This document shows positions 3,522 through 34,830 of a stretch of DNA of 34,830 nt, piece after piece. Both the position numbers and the translations under genes were made by a program. Under the pieces are notes generated by a model, which was not told where the DNA came from, did no database searches, and worked only from the letters and a program-made list of their open reading frames with translations. The stretch lies in the IMG/VR virus record IMGVR_UViG_3300005663_000135, positions 1 to 34,830 of that record; one strand, written 5' to 3'. Source of the DNA: a virus. The number at the start of each line of letters is the position of its first letter. Positions within the stretch are counted from its first letter, which is position 1.

Positions 3522-3710
3522 ATGCCCAAGCCTAAGACAGTTAGAAAGTCAAAGAAGCTAGACTCTATAGAACATCATTGTTCTCAGTGTAATAGACCTA
3601 AGCTTCATGAGGTCTTTGAGCACGAAGATGGTGTCTTAATGAGTTGTCCTTGCGGACACGAGTTTGTAGATGTTATTATTAAACCAGAGCTAGAAGAAGG
3701 AATAACATAA
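3522..3710 (+). CDS. Short zinc-ribbon protein
   Basis: 62 residues with a basic N terminus (KPKTVRKSKK), then HHCSQCNRPKLH and CPCGHEF, that is C-x2-C plus C-x-C-x-H ligands in a mini zinc ribbon. Ten bases after the previous stop, with no strong RBS, so probably translationally coupled. Function unknown. Confidence 0.55.
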   Translation: MPKPKTVRKSKKLDSIEHHCSQCNRPKLHEVFEHEDGVLMSCPCGHEFVDVIIKPELEEGIT

Positions 3711-3711
3711 T

Positions 3712-4083
3712 ATGTCCTTTGATAATAAAGATATTACGCTTCTCGCTTCTGCTGCTCGTACAGCAGAAACGGAAAGCGATGAGCAAACTAACACTCGTGG
3801 CAAAGGTCTGCATGTTATCATAGATGTAACAGTTGATCCTGCTACAGCGTCTATTACGCCTAAGATTCAAGGTAAAGATCCTGCTTCAGGCAAGTGGTAT
3901 GATATTCTGGTAGGTATAGCAATTACTGCTACTGGAATGACTGTACTTAAAGTCTATCCAGGCATTGTCGCAGTAGCAAACGCGGCTGCGAGTGATATCC
4001 TGCCTGCTCATTGGCGTTTCCAGATGGCCGTTGCTGACACAGATAGTATGACATATTCAGTAGGCGCGTTGGTGATAAACTAA
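3712..4083 (+). CDS. Putative virion protein (beta-rich, 123 aa)
   Basis: Contains the segment GKGLHVIIDVTVDPATASIT followed by KIQGKDPASGKWYDIL, a pattern common in small conserved phage proteins encoded among head or head-tail genes. It is beta-rich, has no signal peptide and ends in a hydrophobic strand. RBS GAAGGAA. The stop overlaps the next ATG (TAATG). The structural role is inferred from neighbours; biochemical function is unknown. Confidence 0.5.
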   Translation: MSFDNKDITLLASAARTAETESDEQTNTRGKGLHVIIDVTVDPATASITPKIQGKDPASGKWYDILVGIAITATGMTVLKVYPGIVAVANAAASDILPAHWRFQMAVADTDSMTYSVGALVIN

Positions 4084-4535: not shown

Positions 4536-5075
4536 ATGGCTAACTTTGAAGAAGACAATGGCGACGTTCTAAAAATGGTCACTATGCTAGAACGCCATCT
4601 AGTTAAAGGTGGTACTTTTGATTCTTCGAGTACGCCTAGTATAGAACAGGCTGAAGAAGCATTATCTGAGACAGAAGCTGAAATGTTTGCGTGGCTAGGC
4701 GGAAGTGGATTTTCTATAGATATAGCTGATTATCCTGTAGCAGCTAAAAAGTATCTAGCGTGGTTTGCAGCTCTTGGAATAGCCTACAGAATGGAACTAT
4801 CTCATCCTGGTATCCAGTCAGCTCCGAGAGGTAATAGCCGCTGGATGGTACTTAAAGATCAGTATGAAACACTGCAAGATATTCTTAAAGGAAACACATT
4901 AGACCGTCTTGGTGTAGTTCGTGACAGAGAGACGCTTGGTGTTATTACAGGTGTTAGTCATGATGAAAAAGAGACTCTCTCAACAGATACTGACGCTGTT
5001 CAACCTGCGTTTACAAGAGATGGCTTTAGACATCCTGGCAGAGTCCGTAGTTCACACGTAAGTCAGGAATTGTAA
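4536..5075 (+). CDS. Putative head-tail connector / adaptor protein
   Basis: 179 residues. Helical N-terminal half with an EEALSETEAEMFAWLGG segment and aromatic helices (YLAWFAALGIAYRMEL), typical of small head-completion or DnaT-like connector proteins that sit under the portal. The C-terminal tail is Asp/Thr-rich and probably disordered. It begins the block capsid - connector - gp10-like - tail tube, which fits. No signature motif; the role is from gene order. Confidence 0.5.
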   Translation: MANFEEDNGDVLKMVTMLERHLVKGGTFDSSSTPSIEQAEEALSETEAEMFAWLGGSGFSIDIADYPVAAKKYLAWFAALGIAYRMELSHPGIQSAPRGNSRWMVLKDQYETLQDILKGNTLDRLGVVRDRETLGVITGVSHDEKETLSTDTDAVQPAFTRDGFRHPGRVRSSHVSQEL

Positions 5076-5077
5076 TA

Positions 5078-5545
5078 ATGTCAGTAGGATACAAAGAAAT
5101 ACTAGACGATTTACATGATCTTCTCAATGCTAATGATACTTTCAAAAACAATGTTTCTAGGCATGACTTTTCAGTTATTGCTGACTCAGGCTCAACAGCT
5201 ATCGTCTTGCGAGTTGGCGGCTTTGCTCATCAAGGCTCAGGATTCGGTGGAGAGTATGCTGTTGGGTGGGACTTCTTTATTGATATCTATGAAACCTACA
5301 GTGCTCACATTGAAGAGGATGTAGCGACTCTTGTTAAGGCTCGTGATACAGTAATTGATATCATAGAGAAAAATACATACTTGGGCAAAGGGCCTGGAAA
5401 CACAAGTAAGATAACAGATGCAAAGCTAATAAGAGGAGATAATCTCGGAGTTGTCTTTGACGAAGATAATGAGACACCTACACATTTTACTTTGAGTGTT
5501 CTAGTAGAAGTACAGCAGCAACATTCAGTAACTTTGGCTGAGTAG
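5078..5545 (+). CDS. Putative tail terminator / tail completion protein
   Basis: 155 residues. Starts with a helix (YKEILDDLHDLLNANDTF), then beta strands with a central WDFFIDIY and a closing LSVLVEVQQQ strand. This alternation and the position between connector and gp10-like protein fit the tail-terminator fold that caps the tail tube and docks it to the head. Assignment is by context; no sequence signature was recognised. Confidence 0.5.
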   Translation: MSVGYKEILDDLHDLLNANDTFKNNVSRHDFSVIADSGSTAIVLRVGGFAHQGSGFGGEYAVGWDFFIDIYETYSAHIEEDVATLVKARDTVIDIIEKNTYLGKGPGNTSKITDAKLIRGDNLGVVFDEDNETPTHFTLSVLVEVQQQHSVTLAE

Positions 5546-18624: not shown

Positions 18625-18876
18625 TAATGAATACAGAGATTATGATTGAAGGTATAGAGTTTCAGCAGTATATCTATGCTCATCCAGCAATGATTAAATA
18701 CCTCATTCAGATAAACTGGGAGATACTTCAAAAGGAAATGCGAGCATAGTAATGAATACAGAGATTACATTCTCTGGTATTCCATTAAGAACTAAGTTTC
18801 GAATCATGTGGAATATTTTGCGTGGACAAACTCTGGTTATTAATTGGGGTGGAGAGAGTAATGAATACAGAGATTA
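18623..18876 (+). repeat. 20-bp direct repeat at three successive start codons
   Basis: AGTAATGAATACAGAGATTA occurs at 18623-18642, 18748-18767 and 18857-18876, each time placing ATG at base 5 and encoding MNTEI. A partial copy (ATGAATACAGAGAT) is at 21010-21023 within the ORF after the reductase. Spacing is 125 and 109 bp. The flanking coding sequences differ. Confidence 0.85.
18627..18749 (+). CDS. Small ORF of the MNTEI start family, copy 1
   Basis: 40 residues: MNTEIMIEGIEFQQYIYAHP and then a helix ending ILQKEMRA. Strong RBS GGAGAGGG. Its first codons and the four bases before the ATG are identical to two following starts (20-bp repeat AGTAATGAATACAGAGATTA). Function unknown. Confidence 0.5.
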   Translation: MNTEIMIEGIEFQQYIYAHPAMIKYLIQINWEILQKEMRA

Positions 18877-18877
18877 A
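18752..18877 (+). CDS. Small ORF of the MNTEI start family, copy 2
   Basis: 41 residues: MNTEITFSGIPLRTKFRIMW, then ILRGQTLVINWGGESNEYRD. It starts 2 nt after the previous stop and its end overlaps the reductase start. It carries the second copy of the 20-bp start repeat. Upstream AAGGAAATGCGAG is a moderate RBS. Function unknown. Confidence 0.4.
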   Translation: MNTEITFSGIPLRTKFRIMWNILRGQTLVINWGGESNEYRD

Positions 18878-20924
18878 ACAGACAGAAGTCTCTAAAGAAC
18901 TATTCGGACGTAGATATCAGTGGAAAGAAGAAACATATTCAGATATGCTTGCTCGTGTAGCAGGACATATAGCTCTCGCTGAAAAGCCAAAGTATCGTAG
19001 CAAGTTCACAGATGGTATTTATAATCTTATGGCCTCCGGCGACTTCATGTTTAATAGCCCCACTCTTTTTAATGCTGGAACAGGTCAAGGACTACTAAGC
19101 GCCTGCTTCGTGCTTATCGTAGAAGATAGCTTAGTCTCTATAATGGAATGTAACAGACTCGCAGGACTTATAATGAAATTCGGCGGCGGTGTAGGATATG
19201 GCCTAAGTCGAGTAAGAGCTGAAGGTGAACCAATTAAGTCTGTACAGGGCCGAGCGTGTGGCCCTATCGCTCTACTTCCATTTTATAACGAAACTGCTAA
19301 GTTAGTTACCCAAGGCGGAAGACGCTCTGGTGCCCAGATGGGTATATTATCTATAGATCATCCTAACATTAAAGAGTTTATTCACTTTAAAGATGAGCAC
19401 CCTGACGAGCTACATACCTTTAACATATCAGTAGCTATCACTGATGAATTTATGAAACGCTATAAAGCTGGTGATCCTGAAGCTAGAGCTAGAATGCGTG
19501 AGATTGCTGAGTCTTCTCATAAGACAGGTGATCCTGGTGTCTTCTTTATAGATAATGCTAATAAAGATAACCCTACGCCCTGGCTTGGTCGTCTTGAAGC
19601 TACCAATCCATGTGGAGAGGTTCCTCTATATCATGGGGAAGCTTGTAACCTTGGCAGTATAAATCTAGGGCATTATGTTAAAGCTGGCGGCATTGATTAT
19701 TTAGATATGGAGTGGGCTAAACTTAAAGCAGATATTACACTTGCTGTCAAAGCTCTTGATAATGTGATAGATGTTAACGATTTTCCAGATCCTATTATAT
19801 CGAAAGCAGTAGCCCTCACTCGTAAAATAGGTCTTGGCGTGATGGGCTACGCTGACGCTTTAGCTATTATGGGTATAGAGTATGATTCACAAAGAGCTGT
19901 TGATTGGGGATCAAAAATCAGTCTGTTTATTCAAGATGTTGCTGATAAGGCTAGCTATGATTTAGCAATAGAAAAAGGTATCGCGCCAGCCTTTAAAAAC
20001 TCTCCAGATAAGAATATTCCTATGCGGAGAAATACTACCCGTACCTGTATTGCGCCTACTGGTTCTATATCACAGCTAGTAGGATGTTCGTCAGGTATTG
20101 AACCTTTTTATGAACTGGAATATACTCGTACTATGTATGATAAGGGAATACCTGTTGAGCTTCATGTCAGAGAGCCTGTTCTAGACCTTCTGCAAGAACA
20201 TGGTTTAAATCTACCTAAAACAGCACATGAGGTTTCTCCTAAGTGGCACATTGCACATCAAGCCGCGTGGCAATCTAATGTCAATCTAGCCGTAAGCAAG
20301 ACTATCAACCTACCAGAGACAGCCACGGTCAAGGAAATCGAAGCTAGTTTTGTGCATATGTGGGAATTAGGTTGCAAAGGTGGAACATGCTATCGAGATA
20401 AAAGTCGAGATGTCCAGGTTCTTAGTAAGAATAGACAAGTTGTAAAGGGTCAAGTAGCAAATAACAGGAGGTTACGCCTACCGGACGAGAGAAAGGCGAT
20501 AATCCATAAATTCAGAGTGGGAGAACAAGAAGGATATATTGCTGCTGGAATGTATGATGATGGCACACTAGGAGAAGTGTTTATTAAGATGGCGAAGGAA
20601 GGTTCTACTTTACAGGGCTTGTCTGATGCACTAGGCATTTCAACATCACTGCTCTTACAAAATCAGGTTCCTATTGGCAGTATAGCTCCCAAGTATATAG
20701 GAAGTCGGTTTGAACCCGCTGGTATGACTGACAATCCAGATATACCTATCACTACATCTTTAATTGACTATATCTTTAGATGGTTGTATATGAAGTTTGG
20801 AAACGGTGATAAGATGCAGATAGTAGCAGGTTTATTCTGCCCAGATTGCAATAGTGAATTGATATATCAAGAAGGCTGTCTGAAGTGCAGAAATAAGGCT
20901 TGTGGCTATGAAAAGTGTGGCTAG
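18861..20924 (+). CDS. nrdJ: Class II (B12-dependent) ribonucleotide reductase
   Basis: 687 residues from ATG 18861 (RBS GGAGAG). It reduces ribonucleotides to deoxyribonucleotides using adenosylcobalamin. Visible: FNSPTLFNAG (about 64-73), SACFV with the first redox cysteine (C82), the GGGVGYG loop (108-114), GGRRSGAQMG, NPCGE (249-253) with the thiyl-radical cysteine C251 and catalytic Asn/Glu, ACNLGSIN with C262, APTGSIS, and GGTCYRD. The C terminus has a TSCPD-like region and a four-cysteine zinc ribbon (CPDC...CLKC). No NrdB-like subunit or activase is nearby, consistent with class II. No intein or intron interrupts it. Confidence 0.92.
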   Translation: MNTEIKQTEVSKELFGRRYQWKEETYSDMLARVAGHIALAEKPKYRSKFTDGIYNLMASGDFMFNSPTLFNAGTGQGLLSACFVLIVEDSLVSIMECNRLAGLIMKFGGGVGYGLSRVRAEGEPIKSVQGRACGPIALLPFYNETAKLVTQGGRRSGAQMGILSIDHPNIKEFIHFKDEHPDELHTFNISVAITDEFMKRYKAGDPEARARMREIAESSHKTGDPGVFFIDNANKDNPTPWLGRLEATNPCGEVPLYHGEACNLGSINLGHYVKAGGIDYLDMEWAKLKADITLAVKALDNVIDVNDFPDPIISKAVALTRKIGLGVMGYADALAIMGIEYDSQRAVDWGSKISLFIQDVADKASYDLAIEKGIAPAFKNSPDKNIPMRRNTTRTCIAPTGSISQLVGCSSGIEPFYELEYTRTMYDKGIPVELHVREPVLDLLQEHGLNLPKTAHEVSPKWHIAHQAAWQSNVNLAVSKTINLPETATVKEIEASFVHMWELGCKGGTCYRDKSRDVQVLSKNRQVVKGQVANNRRLRLPDERKAIIHKFRVGEQEGYIAAGMYDDGTLGEVFIKMAKEGSTLQGLSDALGISTSLLLQNQVPIGSIAPKYIGSRFEPAGMTDNPDIPITTSLIDYIFRWLYMKFGNGDKMQIVAGLFCPDCNSELIYQEGCLKCRNKACGYEKCG

Positions 20925-30240: not shown

Positions 30241-31203
30241 ATGGTTTTAGAAGAAACTAAAGAAAGAACAGTTCATCATAACCCACCTCCCTTTTTCGGA
30301 TATTGGACTTCTTCACAATTAGGTTGCGAGCGACGTTGCTTTCTGATTGCGCGAGGTATCGAAGGTGACTTTGTTGAGATGGCTGTTACAGATGAGGGTC
30401 GGCTACACGAAGATGATGTAATAGCCAAGCTGCAAGTTAAAGGTATTATTGTCTATGACAGACAGGTAGAATTAAGACATCCTACTCTTCCTTTGAGGGG
30501 TCATCCAGATGGAAGGGTTATCGTATCTCCTGAATTAGCTGCAGCAATCTTGTCAGCTGACACGTATCTTCTTGATGTGAAGAGTATGGACAGAGCCTTT
30601 TATCTGAAGGCTATAAAAGATTTTAAGGGTAACTTTCCGCATTTGTATAGGCAGCTACAGGGATATTCATTAATGTCTGACGATCATGAATCTATCTATG
30701 TACCTATTAAGAATAGAGCAACAGGTGAGATTCATGAATTAGTTCTTGCACCCGATGAAGAAGAGTGGATCAAAATAGAAACCATGATAACTCTTCTCAG
30801 TAATGCTAACAGTGACCCGAACTTTGATTATAAATATCTGCATTGTCCTTCTGCTGAATCTATATCTGGAAAGTATTGCTCTTATCGCAATGTAGGCATG
30901 TGTGAGCATCAGACTAATATTCCTGATGTTACTGATGCTGAGGTTGTTCAAGCTTTGTCTTCTTACGAAGAAGGCAAAACTCTTAATAAGCAGGGTGAAG
31001 AGCGTAAAGATAGTGCTAAAAAGACCATGATAGCATATCTTAAAAATAATGGTGTAACAAGTATGAAGATTGGGAATAAAATTGTTATGGTAACTAAGGA
31101 AGGTAGGCGCTCTTGTGATCTTGATAAATTGAAGGAGTTAGCTCCTGATATATATAAGCTAGTGGCAGAAGAGACACCTTATGAGAAATTTCAAACTAGA
31201 TGA
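30241..31203 (+). CDS. Cas4/RecB-like PD-(D/E)XK exonuclease with probable Fe-S cluster
   Basis: 320 residues. Nuclease motifs: GHPDGR (D90), LDVKS (D112 and K114, the D/E-x-K part) and QLQGY (138-142). Cysteines C29 or C33 (CERRC) and C202, C213, C221 (CPSAESISGKYCSYRNVGMC) match the one-plus-three arrangement of 4Fe-4S ligands in Cas4 and AddB-type nucleases. Residues about 235-320 are helical and charged. With the neighbouring SSB-like protein and Sak4 ATPase it forms a phage recombination module in which it would resect DNA ends. Confidence 0.8.
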   Translation: MVLEETKERTVHHNPPPFFGYWTSSQLGCERRCFLIARGIEGDFVEMAVTDEGRLHEDDVIAKLQVKGIIVYDRQVELRHPTLPLRGHPDGRVIVSPELAAAILSADTYLLDVKSMDRAFYLKAIKDFKGNFPHLYRQLQGYSLMSDDHESIYVPIKNRATGEIHELVLAPDEEEWIKIETMITLLSNANSDPNFDYKYLHCPSAESISGKYCSYRNVGMCEHQTNIPDVTDAEVVQALSSYEEGKTLNKQGEERKDSAKKTMIAYLKNNGVTSMKIGNKIVMVTKEGRRSCDLDKLKELAPDIYKLVAEETPYEKFQTR

Positions 31204-31270: not shown

Positions 31271-32104
31271 GTGACTAGAGAAAGAATAATGTTAGGGGGA
31301 GAGTCAAAGTCTGGCAAGACTTTCTCCTGGCTTACTATTGCACGTAGTAATCCTAACTCTCAGTTCTTTGTTGCAGAACCAGATGATGGTGTAACTAAAG
31401 TTCTGGAACTGGAGTATCCTGATGTAGCAAAGCAGGGAAATGTTCACGGTGCTCATAAAGGCCCAGACGGATTATGGTTGCCACCTGAGTTTATCTCTAA
31501 TAACTGGCAAGATGTACGCCATTTTGTTGCTGGCTTGAAGAGTCTTCGTGAAGCAGGAGAACTTAGTCCTGACGATTGGATTATTATAGAGGGTATGGAC
31601 ATTATTACTCGTATAATCCGGTCTGAGTATATTGCAGATACTAATAAAGTGGATTCTAAAACGAAGGCGATAATGGCAGATCCCTGGGAAGCTATTAAGA
31701 CGAAACGTGCTAGAGGCGCTCCTGTTCTAGAGCCATCTGATCATGATGCGATTAATTATGAATACGAAGGGCAGATGACCACTCTGGTCTATATTATGCC
31801 CTGTAATATTCTTGCTACAGCTGGTATTGAGAAGATTCACTTCGACTCTAAATTTATGGATGAAGACATGAAACAGTTTTATGCATCTATGGGTACTGGC
31901 TTTAAGCTAGAAGGTCATAAGCGTAATCCTCGTATGTTTGATACGATAGTTTATCTGTATGTGGGTTCTGAGTATCAGATGGAAGTTCTTGGAGACAGAG
32001 GTATAGGCAAACAGGCTCGCCGAAAGAATACAGATTTCTGGTTGGAGCTAGAGCGATCTAGAACAGCTATACTCGCAACAAAGAATAATAAAGGTGAGAA
32101 ATAA
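31271..32104 (+). CDS. Sak4-like RecA-family recombination ATPase
   Basis: 277 residues from GTG 31271 (AAAGGAG upstream; an in-frame ATG at 31289 lacks an RBS and would cut into the Walker A strand). Walker A GESKSGKT at 10-17 and Walker B WIIIEGMD at about 103-110. Size and simple RecA core match phage Sak4 proteins, which promote single-strand annealing together with an SSB. Cysteine-poor and without DnaB features. It has its own promoter and is coupled by TAATG to the next small gene. Confidence 0.75.
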   Translation: MTRERIMLGGESKSGKTFSWLTIARSNPNSQFFVAEPDDGVTKVLELEYPDVAKQGNVHGAHKGPDGLWLPPEFISNNWQDVRHFVAGLKSLREAGELSPDDWIIIEGMDIITRIIRSEYIADTNKVDSKTKAIMADPWEAIKTKRARGAPVLEPSDHDAINYEYEGQMTTLVYIMPCNILATAGIEKIHFDSKFMDEDMKQFYASMGTGFKLEGHKRNPRMFDTIVYLYVGSEYQMEVLGDRGIGKQARRKNTDFWLELERSRTAILATKNNKGEK

Positions 32105-32361
32105 TGACTGTATTCTCTAGGGCGTGGATGTTGCTCGAAGATCGTATAGACAGTAAAACTTCATGGGGTAAGAACGAAATAAGGAATGAAATGTTTTTGA
32201 GTCTGCGTGATGCTGCTTTAGAAGAAGACAAGAAGGAAGATACAAGTGATGGCTTTGATGATCTTCTTAAGCAATGCTTAGTTTGCGGAGCGCGGGGTGT
32301 TAATATGCTAATCTATCGTTGTACAGGTATAGATAGTGATGGCTTTCACAAAATTCAGTAA
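32104..32361 (+). CDS. Small protein with C-terminal Cys motif
   Basis: 85 residues starting in TAATG after the Sak4 gene. N-terminal helices (AWMLLEDRIDSKTSWGK), acidic linker, then CLVCGARG and a later Cys (YRCTG), an incomplete zinc-ribbon-like set. Function unknown; probably co-translated with Sak4. Confidence 0.5.
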   Translation: MTVFSRAWMLLEDRIDSKTSWGKNEIRNEMFLSLRDAALEEDKKEDTSDGFDDLLKQCLVCGARGVNMLIYRCTGIDSDGFHKIQ

Positions 32362-32370
32362 GGTATAAAG

Positions 32371-32615
32371 GAGGTATATTATAGCTTGCTCAGAACGGTA
32401 AATCAGGATGCTTCTGTGAACTTAGAAGTAGGACATTCGCCGTCTTCTGTGCGCCTGAGCAGTCCAACTTGATTCGTCACAAGATTGGGCTTTTCTGTTG
32501 AAGTTCATTCATTCAACAATATTTCAACAGAGAGTAATGGAGATTTCAGGATAAAGAGTCTGTCCTGACAGTAAAGGATGAATAGCTGAATTCTGAGCAA
32601 GCTATAATATGTCTT
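32371..32615 (+). ncRNA. Structured noncoding element with 20-25 bp closing stem
   Basis: ATATTATAGCTTGCTCAGAA (32376-32395) is perfectly complementary to 32591-32610; allowing G-U the stem grows to about 25 bp (32371-32395 with 32591-32615). Inside are CCAACTTG/CAAG-A-TTGG (32464-32488, one bulged A), TCTGTTGAA/TTCAACAGA (32494-32531) and TCAGGA/TCCTGA (32546-32568). CTGAGCA at 32455-32461 repeats the start of the 3' arm and can also pair with the 5' arm, offering two exclusive folds. There is no convincing ORF. The 5' arm begins at an AAAGGAGG that would be partly buried. It lies just before an HTH/zinc protein gene: a leader switch or an independent RNA. Confidence 0.6.
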
Positions 32616-32651
32616 CTTGAGATTAGATGTGGTAGTTAGGAGGTACAGCAT

Positions 32652-33032
32652 GTGGTTACTGCAAAGGAGAAAATACTAGACTTACCGCGACCGCTCACTG
32701 ATAATCTATCTGATATTGGTGACGACTTAGGCGTTAGTAGACAGTATGTTCATCAGGTTGTAACTGAAGAAAAGATACCTTATGTAGTCAGAGGTATAAA
32801 AGAAGAAAAGATTTGCTTAAATTCTGAATGTACTAATTTAACCTCTTATCCAGACAGAGACGCCTTTTGTGACTTATGCAGTCCAAACTCATATGAACTG
32901 AGACGTAAAGGAGAATGGGTAAAGTGTACTCTTTGCAAGAAGCAAACTTATCGTTGCCAGTCAGAATTAACAAGAACTAAAAAGATTTTCTGTAGCACAG
33001 AATGTTACAACAAATTTAGACAGATTAAATAA
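32652..33032 (+). CDS. HTH and zinc-finger protein
   Basis: 126 residues from GTG 32652 (AGGAGG 8 nt upstream). Residues about 14-45 read as a helix-turn-helix (SDIGDDLGVSRQYVHQVV). Then CLNSEC and CDLC, and CTLC with CSTEC: two four-cysteine zinc-binding sets. Probably a DNA-binding regulator, or the recognition part of an HNH-type protein that lacks its nuclease. The structured element at 32371-32615 occupies its upstream region. Confidence 0.6.
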   Translation: MVTAKEKILDLPRPLTDNLSDIGDDLGVSRQYVHQVVTEEKIPYVVRGIKEEKICLNSECTNLTSYPDRDAFCDLCSPNSYELRRKGEWVKCTLCKKQTYRCQSELTRTKKIFCSTECYNKFRQIK

Positions 33033-33036
33033 TATT

Positions 33037-33726
33037 ATGGTCACTGTGATGTATCATCCGACTGAACCCTATGAAATTAAAAACGACTTCGGTGACATAG
33101 GTATGTCTAATCCTAATCTTCCTACTGACTATGGTTGGTTTGTTAGTGGCCGTAAAACGTTAGTTGAACGCAAACATATACCACAGGACTTACTAGCTTC
33201 CATGAATGATGGGCGGTTGGCTAGAGTAACTCAGCTACTTATTCAGAACATAGAAAATGGTGGACGTAGTTATTTTCTCTTTGAAGGATTTATGCGCTGT
33301 AATAGCAGTGGTTTTATTCTTAATCCAGATAGACCTAGTGGGTGGGAGATAGATAAAGTCTCTGGTATAATTTCTTCTATCCAAGCATCAGGTATAGAAT
33401 TACTTCTGAGTCCTAGCATTAAAGAAACAGCTTTAGTGCTTATTAGTCAGATGCGATGGGAGATGAAGGGAGAGCACAAAAGTACTCGTACTCGGCCTGG
33501 GCCTGCAGGTGATGGATGGGGAAAGCCTAGTTACTCACCGTATATGCTTTGGGCTTATCAGGGCTTTCCAGGTATAGGTGCAGAGATAGCTGAAATCTTG
33601 TATAACGCTGCGCCTACGTTTGAGGATCTGTTAGGTATGTCTATTAAAGACTTTAGTGAGCTAAAGCGATTTGGCAGGAAACGCAGTGAAGGTCTGTATA
33701 AGTTTCTGCATGAGGGTGTATTATAA
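33037..33726 (+). CDS. ERCC4-type (XPF/Mus81-like) nuclease with HhH
   Basis: 229 residues. DYGWFVSGRKTLVERKHIPQ then D: the ERKxxxD signature with E44, R45, K46 and D51, preceded by an acidic residue (D31), followed by MNDGRLARVTQLL, as in ERCC4 nuclease domains. Residues about 172-229 form helix-hairpin-helix motifs (FPGIGAEIAEIL, LKRFGRKRSEGLYKFL). Such enzymes cut branched or flap DNA, so it could resolve recombination or replication intermediates made by the Sak4 module. Compact compared with archaeal and eukaryotic XPF, and without a helicase domain. Confidence 0.75.
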   Translation: MVTVMYHPTEPYEIKNDFGDIGMSNPNLPTDYGWFVSGRKTLVERKHIPQDLLASMNDGRLARVTQLLIQNIENGGRSYFLFEGFMRCNSSGFILNPDRPSGWEIDKVSGIISSIQASGIELLLSPSIKETALVLISQMRWEMKGEHKSTRTRPGPAGDGWGKPSYSPYMLWAYQGFPGIGAEIAEILYNAAPTFEDLLGMSIKDFSELKRFGRKRSEGLYKFLHEGVL

Positions 33727-34110: not shown

Positions 34111-34229
34111 ATGTTTTGAGTGCTTATGTGATAGCGCTGCAGTATCGGTTGGGGCCATACGGCTTGGCGCTTATTGGCATTCGCACAAAGGAGGAGCTGA
34201 GGCAGTGGCTAAAGATGAAGCGCCTGTAA
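34092..34229 (+). CDS. Small protein, 45 aa
   Basis: ATG 34092 follows GGAGATAAGGT and overlaps the previous gene by 19 bases. MVEKSVNVLSAYVIALQYRL, GPYGLALIGIRTKEELRQWL, KMKRL: a compact helical protein. Preferred here over a longer frame (34055) that only reads through the previous gene. Function unknown. Confidence 0.5.
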   Translation: MVEKSVNVLSAYVIALQYRLGPYGLALIGIRTKEELRQWLKMKRL

Positions 34230-34315
34230 CCTTTAACCTCCAAGCGGCCAGGGCGCGGTGCGAGGCGGCGAAAGGAATACGGATGAGTGGGCTGAGTGTC
34301 GAAGGAGGCGAATGA
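34205..34315 (+). CDS. Mini-ORF, 36 aa, at the composition boundary
   Basis: GTG 34205 after AAAGGAGGAGCTGAGGCA. VAKDEAPVTFNLQAARARCE then AAKGIRMSGLSVEGGE. Codons become GC-rich within it. Its end (GAAGGAGGCGAATGA) supplies the RBS and the overlap start of the next gene. It contains the RCEAA pattern that recurs at 34728. Confidence 0.4.
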   Translation: MAKDEAPVTFNLQAARARCEAAKGIRMSGLSVEGGE

Positions 34316-34566
34316 TGGCGCTTAAACCTGGTGGCGGACAGGTCACCATCTGCGAGCAAATCGTGGAGGATTTGCCCAGCGGCCTGACGCTGTTATTTGA
34401 GAAGATGCCGTCAGGCCTCACGAAACTGTCTATCTTCGGTGATCTACCCTACGGTAATAGGGAGATCATCTTTAACGAAGATGGGGCGGAAGCGGGCGGC
34501 GGGACGTGTTTACGGGGAGACTGTCACCCCTCTTGGCTGAGAGAAGTGGAGGCGAATAATGGGTGA
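34315..34566 (+). CDS. Unknown small protein in GC-rich segment
   Basis: 83 residues from ATG 34315, or one more from ATG 34312; both follow GAAGGAGGCGA. MALKPGGGQVTICEQIVEDL, then strand-rich sequence with LPYGNREIIFNEDG and C-x4-C (CLRGDC). Possibly a small metal-binding protein; function unknown. The next start overlaps its end. Confidence 0.5.
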   Translation: MALKPGGGQVTICEQIVEDLPSGLTLLFEKMPSGLTKLSIFGDLPYGNREIIFNEDGAEAGGGTCLRGDCHPSWLREVEANNG

Positions 34567-34735
34567 CAAGACTGTAACCGTAACTATTCCCCGTGTCGCG
34601 GCGGAGCAGATGGTGGCGGCATTGCGCTGTGAGAGCGTGAAGCTGAAGACAAGCCCGAACTGCCTTGCGGTGCCTCGCTATCCGTGCTCATCATGTGCCG
34701 CACTCGCCGCTCTCAAAGAGGCTCTCCGTGCTTGA
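34559..34735 (+). CDS. Small Cys-containing protein, 58 aa
   Basis: ATG 34559 after GGAGGCGAATA, overlapping the previous stop. MGDKTVTVTIPRVAAEQMVA, then C and CSSC with a final helix AALAALKEALRA. GC-rich codons, like 1-189. Possibly a zinc-binding mini protein. Confidence 0.45.
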   Translation: MGDKTVTVTIPRVAAEQMVAALRCESVKLKTSPNCLAVPRYPCSSCAALAALKEALRA

Positions 34736-34778
34736 CCTACCCGCGATAAAGAGGCTGTGCGAGGCGGCGACGGAATGA
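34728..34778 (+). CDS. Micro-ORF, 16 codons
   Basis: GTG start overlapping the previous stop: VLDLPAIKRLCEAATE, stop overlapping the next ATG (ATGA). The LCEAATE end resembles RCEAAKG at 34205. It may be a coupling peptide or chance. Confidence 0.25.
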   Translation: MLDLPAIKRLCEAATE

Positions 34779-34830
34779 GTGGGGCTGCCCTTCGAGACCG
34801 ACAGGGGCGTTTCCACCGACACGGTGAATG
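34775..34830 (+). CDS. 3'-truncated ORF at the right edge
   Basis: ATG in an ATGA overlap; reads MSGAALRDRQGRFHRHGE and leaves the window open. Too little to identify. Confidence 0.3.
   Translation, partial: MSGAALRDRQGRFHRHGE

Follow-up and report, generated by a model that had tools for sequence, protein, structure and literature searches.

Does the inverted repeat that lies behind the Sak4 operon and ahead of an HTH/zinc protein gene of this virus mark a leader switch controlling the downstream genes, or does it enclose a free-standing phage RNA? In the window, by which we mean the whole 34.8-kb virus record analyzed, a structured RNA element of ~250 nt was located at 32368-32618 on the + strand, between the two genes named in the earlier note. 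The closing inverted repeat described there is present, but the span of 32371-32615 given for it falls 3 nt short on each side: 32368-32395 pairs with 32591-32618 to form a helix (P1) with arms of 28 nt each and G-U pairs in its outer part. The element occupies the gap from the end of an 85-aa ORF (32361), which separates it from Sak4, to the start of the HTH/zinc gene (32652). The genes on either side are as follows.

32104..32361, + strand: 85-aa ORF between Sak4 and the element, ending 6 nt ahead of P1
32652..33032, + strand: HTH/zinc gene, encoding an N-terminal HTH and zinc-ribbon/MYM-like cysteines, with a GTG start behind AGGAGG
33037..33726, + strand: ERCC4 (XPF/Mus81-like) nuclease with HHH domain; Pfam HHH_5 above the cut-off, ERCC4 just under it

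Upstream of the element lie genes for a RecE-like exonuclease (30241-31203, 320 aa) and a Sak4-like product (31271, named by PHROGs). In an AlphaFold model of the HTH/zinc protein the helix pattern is seen, with a mean pLDDT of 67 that is too weak for a fold search. A 9-codon ATG frame (MWLLQRRKY, 32650-32679) overlaps the GTG start of this gene, and L004, one of the contigs described below, has an equivalent.

The element folds with a minimum free energy of −95.2 kcal/mol, compared with −64.5 ± 4.9 kcal/mol for shuffled sequences (z = −6.2; 0 of 200 shuffles as good). In an alignment with three homologs, the non-Watson–Crick cells comprise 30 G-U versus 4 A-C, which places the RNA on the + strand. 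Stop codons are found in every + frame across the element, which is thus noncoding. The AAAGGAGG at the base of the 5′ arm, to which the earlier note had drawn attention, is indeed there, but it is used by no ORF and is absent from the homolog in L013. A coding frame from a TTG at 32386 behind this motif was considered and dropped, as it is absent in the homologs and stops occur in all frames. A TATAAT within the 3′ arm of P1 was likewise rejected as a promoter, since the homologs do not keep it. No promoter or terminator belonging to the element was recognized, and no terminator was found between the element and the HTH/zinc gene. The window contains no detectable tRNA or tmRNA.

Homologs and gene neighborhood

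Protein and pattern searches of IMG/VR yielded homologs in three distinct contigs, with positions taken from a covariance model (L004:2875-3143, L011:8168-8403 and L013:11559-11846). Across the four phages the element measures 235-290 nt; the homologs have folding z-scores of −7.2, −7.2 and −7.5 and closing helices of 28-31 nt. The covariance model, which contains 64 nested pairs and is usable for searching metagenome assemblies, identifies one copy in each of the four contigs, plus the expected weak antisense echo.

In all four phages, the element is followed by the same HTH/zinc gene and then by the gene for the ERCC4-HHH nuclease, which is thus conserved throughout. Each homolog fits between its preceding ORF, which ends no more than 3 nt from the element in L011 and L013, and the HTH/zinc gene, whose start codon lies ~15-35 nt beyond the element in all four phages. 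In L011, ~2.4 kb of other genes stand between Sak4 and the RNA, and the RNA therefore tracks the HTH/zinc–ERCC4 pair, not Sak4.

Several features of these neighborhoods were recorded in passing. The small ORF ahead of the RNA in L004 (2602-2873) is split over two frames relative to the 85-aa ORF of the window, by a frameshift or a sequencing error. The RecE-like exonuclease of the same contig (57-1682, 541-aa ORF) carries an apparent intein, recognized from the translation by its CVSLGT...AEGFASHNS flanks, and the 320-aa copy in the window has none. Two HNH-like ORFs (3572-3925 and 4657-5145, within L004:3572-5317) lie on either side of the ERCC4 gene, and the second of them is followed by an extra copy of the C-terminal HHH part of ERCC4 (G001:31221-31391), an arrangement that resembles the outcome of homing-endonuclease insertion. 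At the right end of the window (34130-34830) the ORFs are short, overlapping and GC-rich, whereas the early genes are AT-rich, and similar GC-rich small ORFs are present in L011 (6148-7683), between Sak4 and the RNA.

Scans of viral contigs for the conserved core returned true homologs only in L004/L007, L013 and L011/L014. Chance coding matches (L005, L006, L008, L012 and L015-L019) were discarded once they had been read and folded; among those run against the covariance model, a set without L019 (which duplicates the stretch in L015/L017), none obtained a score. A corresponding scan of genome contigs gave four matches, 0 of 4 with the structure. With the element and the Sak4, ERCC4 and HTH/zinc proteins as queries, blastn and tblastn gave no match among the phages of INPHARED or the plasmids of PLSDB, nor did the covariance model match any of six phages with a major head protein 34-38% identical to that of the window phage, a set with no positive control among the six.

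Architecture and covariation of the RNA

Inside P1, the hairpins noted earlier are present and are here counted as P2/P2a, P3, P4, P5, P6 and P7, with P3 enclosing P4 and P5. The UCAGG/CCUGA pseudoknot and the P5–P7 contact are additions to the earlier map. In the list below, two-sided refers to pairs in which both partners change.

32368..32395, + strand: P1 closing helix, 5′ strand, pairs with 32591-32618; 16 of 28 pairs two-sided, 97% of cells paired
32396..32399, + strand: P2 5′ strand CGGU, pairs with 32439-32442; paired in all four phages
32403..32407, + strand: predicted pseudoknot strand UCAGG in the P2 loop, partner of CCUGA (32454-32458)
32408..32436, + strand: P2a hairpin, from individual folds; differs in length and sequence among the phages, with the longest form in L013
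32439..32442, + strand: P2 3′ strand GCCG, pairs with 32396-32399
32443..32447, + strand: P3 5′ strand UCUUC, pairs with 32539-32543; paired in all four phages, one-sided changes only
32448..32460, + strand: conserved junction core UGUGCGCCUGAGC, which includes a pseudoknot strand; its block is columns 110-138 of alignment A6
32454..32458, + strand: predicted pseudoknot strand CCUGA, just 3′ of the first P3 strand, partner of UCAGG; its CUGA portion also belongs to the alternative partner proposed in the earlier note
32461..32491, + strand: P4 hairpin (arms 32461-32467/32485-32491); 2 of 7 pairs two-sided, all cells paired
32492..32533, + strand: P5 hairpin (arms 32492-32503/32522-32533); 5 of 12 pairs two-sided, all cells paired
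32504..32510, + strand: L5 strand UUCAUUC of the putative P5–P7 contact; 5 of 7 pairs two-sided, 81.5% of cells paired
32533..32538, + strand: conserved AGUAAU leading into P3; 32533 is the last P5 base and the rest is unpaired; A6 columns 209-220
32539..32543, + strand: P3 3′ strand GGAGA, pairs with 32443-32447
32546..32568, + strand: P6 hairpin (arms 32546-32549/32565-32568, longer in each individual sequence); 3 of 4 pairs two-sided
32569..32588, + strand: P7 hairpin CAGU/GCUG, bearing the L7 loop; 1 of 4 pairs two-sided, all cells paired
32576..32582, + strand: L7 strand GGAUGAA of the putative P5–P7 contact, partner of L5 UUCAUUC
32591..32618, + strand: P1 closing helix, 3′ strand, pairs with 32368-32395

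The alignment consists of four sequences (window, L004, L011 and L013) from a single phage lineage. A scan of this alignment for all possible helices, run unprompted, ranked P1, P5, the loop–loop pairing and P6 at the top, and in the same scan the base of the P2a stem co-varies. Canonical pairing fills 97.4% of the pair cells of the combined structure. Two-sided changes occur in 33 of its 76 pairs, compared with 11.6 ± 2.4 in shuffles that ignore relatedness (0 of 500 as high). When the 3′ partners are slid by 1-3 columns, 36-49% of cells remain paired and 1-5 pairs remain two-sided; as the choice of helices drew in part on these sequences, this slide control and the two-sided counts are safer numbers than the shuffle comparison. 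P1, P4, P5 and P6 are demonstrated by covariation, and the pseudoknot and the loop–loop contact have partial covariation support. Because the four sequences come from one lineage and the structure is partly alignment-chosen, P2, P3, P7 and the pseudoknot are each backed by few changes; P2 in particular is weakly tested, its variation being limited to U-A/U-G alternation. Both refuting conditions named in the earlier note were examined. Homologs with the flanking genes were found and compensatory changes in them are abundant, and the search of Rfam gave no credible match; together, these two results strongly support a conserved structured RNA, and that the element itself is real we regard as close to certain.

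The pseudoknot would bring UCAGG in the P2 loop onto CCUGA in the junction core. The five pairs are possible in all four phages, with a U-A to C-G exchange in L011 and no other change; the evidence for its formation is moderate, because the remaining pairs never vary. Beyond it, the loops of P5 and P7 probably contact each other. The complementary segments differ among the phages (UUCAUUC/GGAUGAA in the window, UUCAUCU/AGAUGGA in L004, UUACUAA/UUAGUAA in L013 and CUGUA/UACAG in L011), and loop-shuffle tests give p values of 0.011, 0.166, 0.036 and 0.005 for the window, L004, L013 and L011, respectively (combined p = 2.2e-4). This pairing is the best of ten loop pairs, with p ~0.002 after correction for ten. 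A contact of L7 with L4, which was also tried, is compatible with the sequences of the window and L004 but impossible in L011; its combined p is 0.004, compared with 2.2e-4 for L5–L7. The L5–L7 pairing could occur within one molecule or between molecules.

Conservation is unevenly distributed over this fold. Between pairs of phages, identity in the junction blocks is 14-17 of 17 (columns 28-44), 23-28 of 29 (columns 110-138), 10-11 of 12 (columns 209-220) and 10-12 of 13 (columns 272-284). The junction core is thus 77-100% identical, compared with 48-79% for the DNA of the neighboring genes (ERCC4 58-74%, HTH 48-79% and Sak4 60-79%). The P5 loop, by comparison, matches at 3-9 of 24 positions and the outer strands of P1 at 9-15 of 21 (43-71%); despite this divergence, P1 holds 26-28 pairs in every member. 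A helix kept in length and not in sequence is the pattern expected for double-stranded RNA processing or for an isolating helix. Helices kept as helices, together with a core kept as sequence, form the pattern of an RNA that binds or catalyzes something through its core.

Known families and possible roles

The element is a conserved, structured, noncoding + strand RNA that occupies one fixed locus in one phage lineage and lies outside Rfam. No Rfam 15 family reaches its gathering score in the window; at E values up to 10 the window element has no match, and the homologs have only far-below-threshold chance matches to unrelated models. The Rfam models for ROOL, GOLLD, phi29 pRNA and group I/II introns do not match the element, and the part of the published literature on large phage RNAs that was covered describes ROOL, GOLLD and OLE and not this element. 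It is probably a new phage RNA family. ROOL and GOLLD are elaborately folded orphan RNAs of phages and prophages, with unknown function, lengths of ~660 to >800 nt and a frequent location near tRNA islands (PMC12286853). The present element resembles them in being phage-encoded and elaborately folded, with a pseudoknot and probable kissing loops that have covariation support; unlike them, it is 235-290 nt long, lies in a window that lacks tRNA genes and matches no Rfam family. A further mark of ROOL and GOLLD is a homo-oligomeric RNA cage assembled by intermolecular contacts, and the L5–L7 pairing of the element could be either intramolecular or intermolecular.

Other structured RNAs share single features with it. 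The 174-nt phi29 pRNA, confined to phi29-like podoviruses, has a long closing helix and, in addition, loop–loop pairing. Our element shares the former and probably the latter, but it stands among recombination genes, in a phage with an RDJL-like major head protein, and has no Rfam match. In rRNA precursors, a long near-perfect helix around a structured RNA is cut by RNase III, a likeness limited to the geometry of P1. The omega RNA of IscB/TnpB (HEARO) and retron ncRNA, whose ends pair, are structured RNAs directly upstream of a protein gene, as is the element. In the four contigs, however, no reverse transcriptase (RVT_1) was found, with a signal in control genomes, and no TnpB zinc ribbon was above the cut-off, with one sub-threshold match in G001 far from the element.

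We somewhat favor the reading that the element is a free-standing structured phage RNA of ~250 nt. The RNA would be transcribed within the early recombination operon, as the common strand and the packing of the ORFs suggest, and would fold in the polycistronic transcript, where the ~28-bp P1 would isolate a compact domain held by the pseudoknot and the probable P5–P7 contact. A double-stranded RNA-specific ribonuclease such as RNase III would probably cut P1, so that a stable RNA is set free and the HTH/zinc–ERCC4 message retains a short leader. The enzyme would have to be that of the host, because the four contigs yielded no phage gene for RNase III in a search that gave a signal in control genomes. 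Both the excision and the stability of the RNA are guesses. The near-invariant core (GAACGGUAAAUCAGG, UGUGCGCCUGAGCAGUC and AGUAAUGGAG) would bind a specific partner, either a protein or a host machine, for which the HTH/zinc protein encoded next to it is the leading candidate. More tentatively, the element may represent a new RNA class whose pseudoknotted core acts in trans in a ribonucleoprotein, possibly with the HTH/zinc protein, in recombination, replication or the takeover of a host machine.

The constant place of the element before the HTH/zinc gene also fits the main rival reading, a cis-regulatory 5′ leader of the HTH/zinc–ERCC4 genes, acting for example through autoregulation by the HTH/zinc protein, a plausible nucleic-acid binder, or through ligand binding. 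Such a leader is nevertheless rather unlikely. The 28-bp P1 would make a poor switch, and the fold is coupled to no expression platform of the kind used by riboswitches and attenuators: there is no terminator, and no pairing of the element with the ribosome binding site of the HTH/zinc gene is conserved, the latter region being locally folded or open in a manner that differs by phage. Phage gene order is conserved anyway, so the constant position is weak evidence for a leader. The free-standing RNA is the favored of the two possibilities raised by the earlier note.

A processive antitermination RNA, acting in cis on RNA polymerase for read-through of the early operon, appears improbable. HK022 put and EAR are structured antitermination RNAs inside long same-strand operons, and a compact pseudoknotted RNA in the middle of such an operon, with no terminator or promoter of its own, is in keeping with this role. 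However, put and EAR are smaller and have no long closing helix, and the element has no Rfam match.

The co-transcriptional switch proposed in the earlier note, in which the 5′ arm pairs early over 7 bp or late over 20 bp, is very improbable. The repeated CTGAGCA at 32455-32461 is real in the window and could pair with the TGCTCAG of the 5′ arm, but the 7 bp are available in the window only and shrink to 5 bp (CUCAG/CUGAG) in the three homologs, with the column pair 25/131 unpaired in three of the four phages. Although the 5 bp are possible in all four and include one two-sided change, in L011 (columns 27/129), 115 of 500 shuffles match this result. Column 129 has column 40 as its pseudoknot partner, and column 27 pairs with column 283 in P1; as these pairs account for all changes equally well, the switch is not needed, and the pseudoknot is the better explanation of the repeat. 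A 28-bp closing helix would moreover be a poor switching arm, and neither a terminator nor a conserved pairing that sequesters the ribosome binding site precedes the downstream gene.

An element that acts as DNA, whether a MITE, an origin hairpin or an inverted-repeat recombination site, is barely credible even though the repeat adjoins recombination genes: each contig has a single copy in the same location, self-complementarity is conserved and the repeat sequence is not, and the excess of G-U over A-C cells reflects selection on one strand as RNA.

To our knowledge, few large structured phage RNAs have clear evolutionary support. In the element, a frozen core stands out sharply from helices that are free to drift in sequence; the RNA is short enough for cryo-EM or SHAPE work, and one obvious candidate protein partner, the HTH/zinc protein, makes binding by the RNA directly testable.

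As for the phage itself, terminase (phrog_2) was not found in the four contigs, and the major head protein of the window phage resembles those of Roseobacter RDJL phages. The window also encodes a ribonucleotide reductase large subunit with a TSCPD domain (18822-20924), which its nearest phage matches (Roseobacter, Moorella and Loktanella phages) assign to the B12-dependent type.
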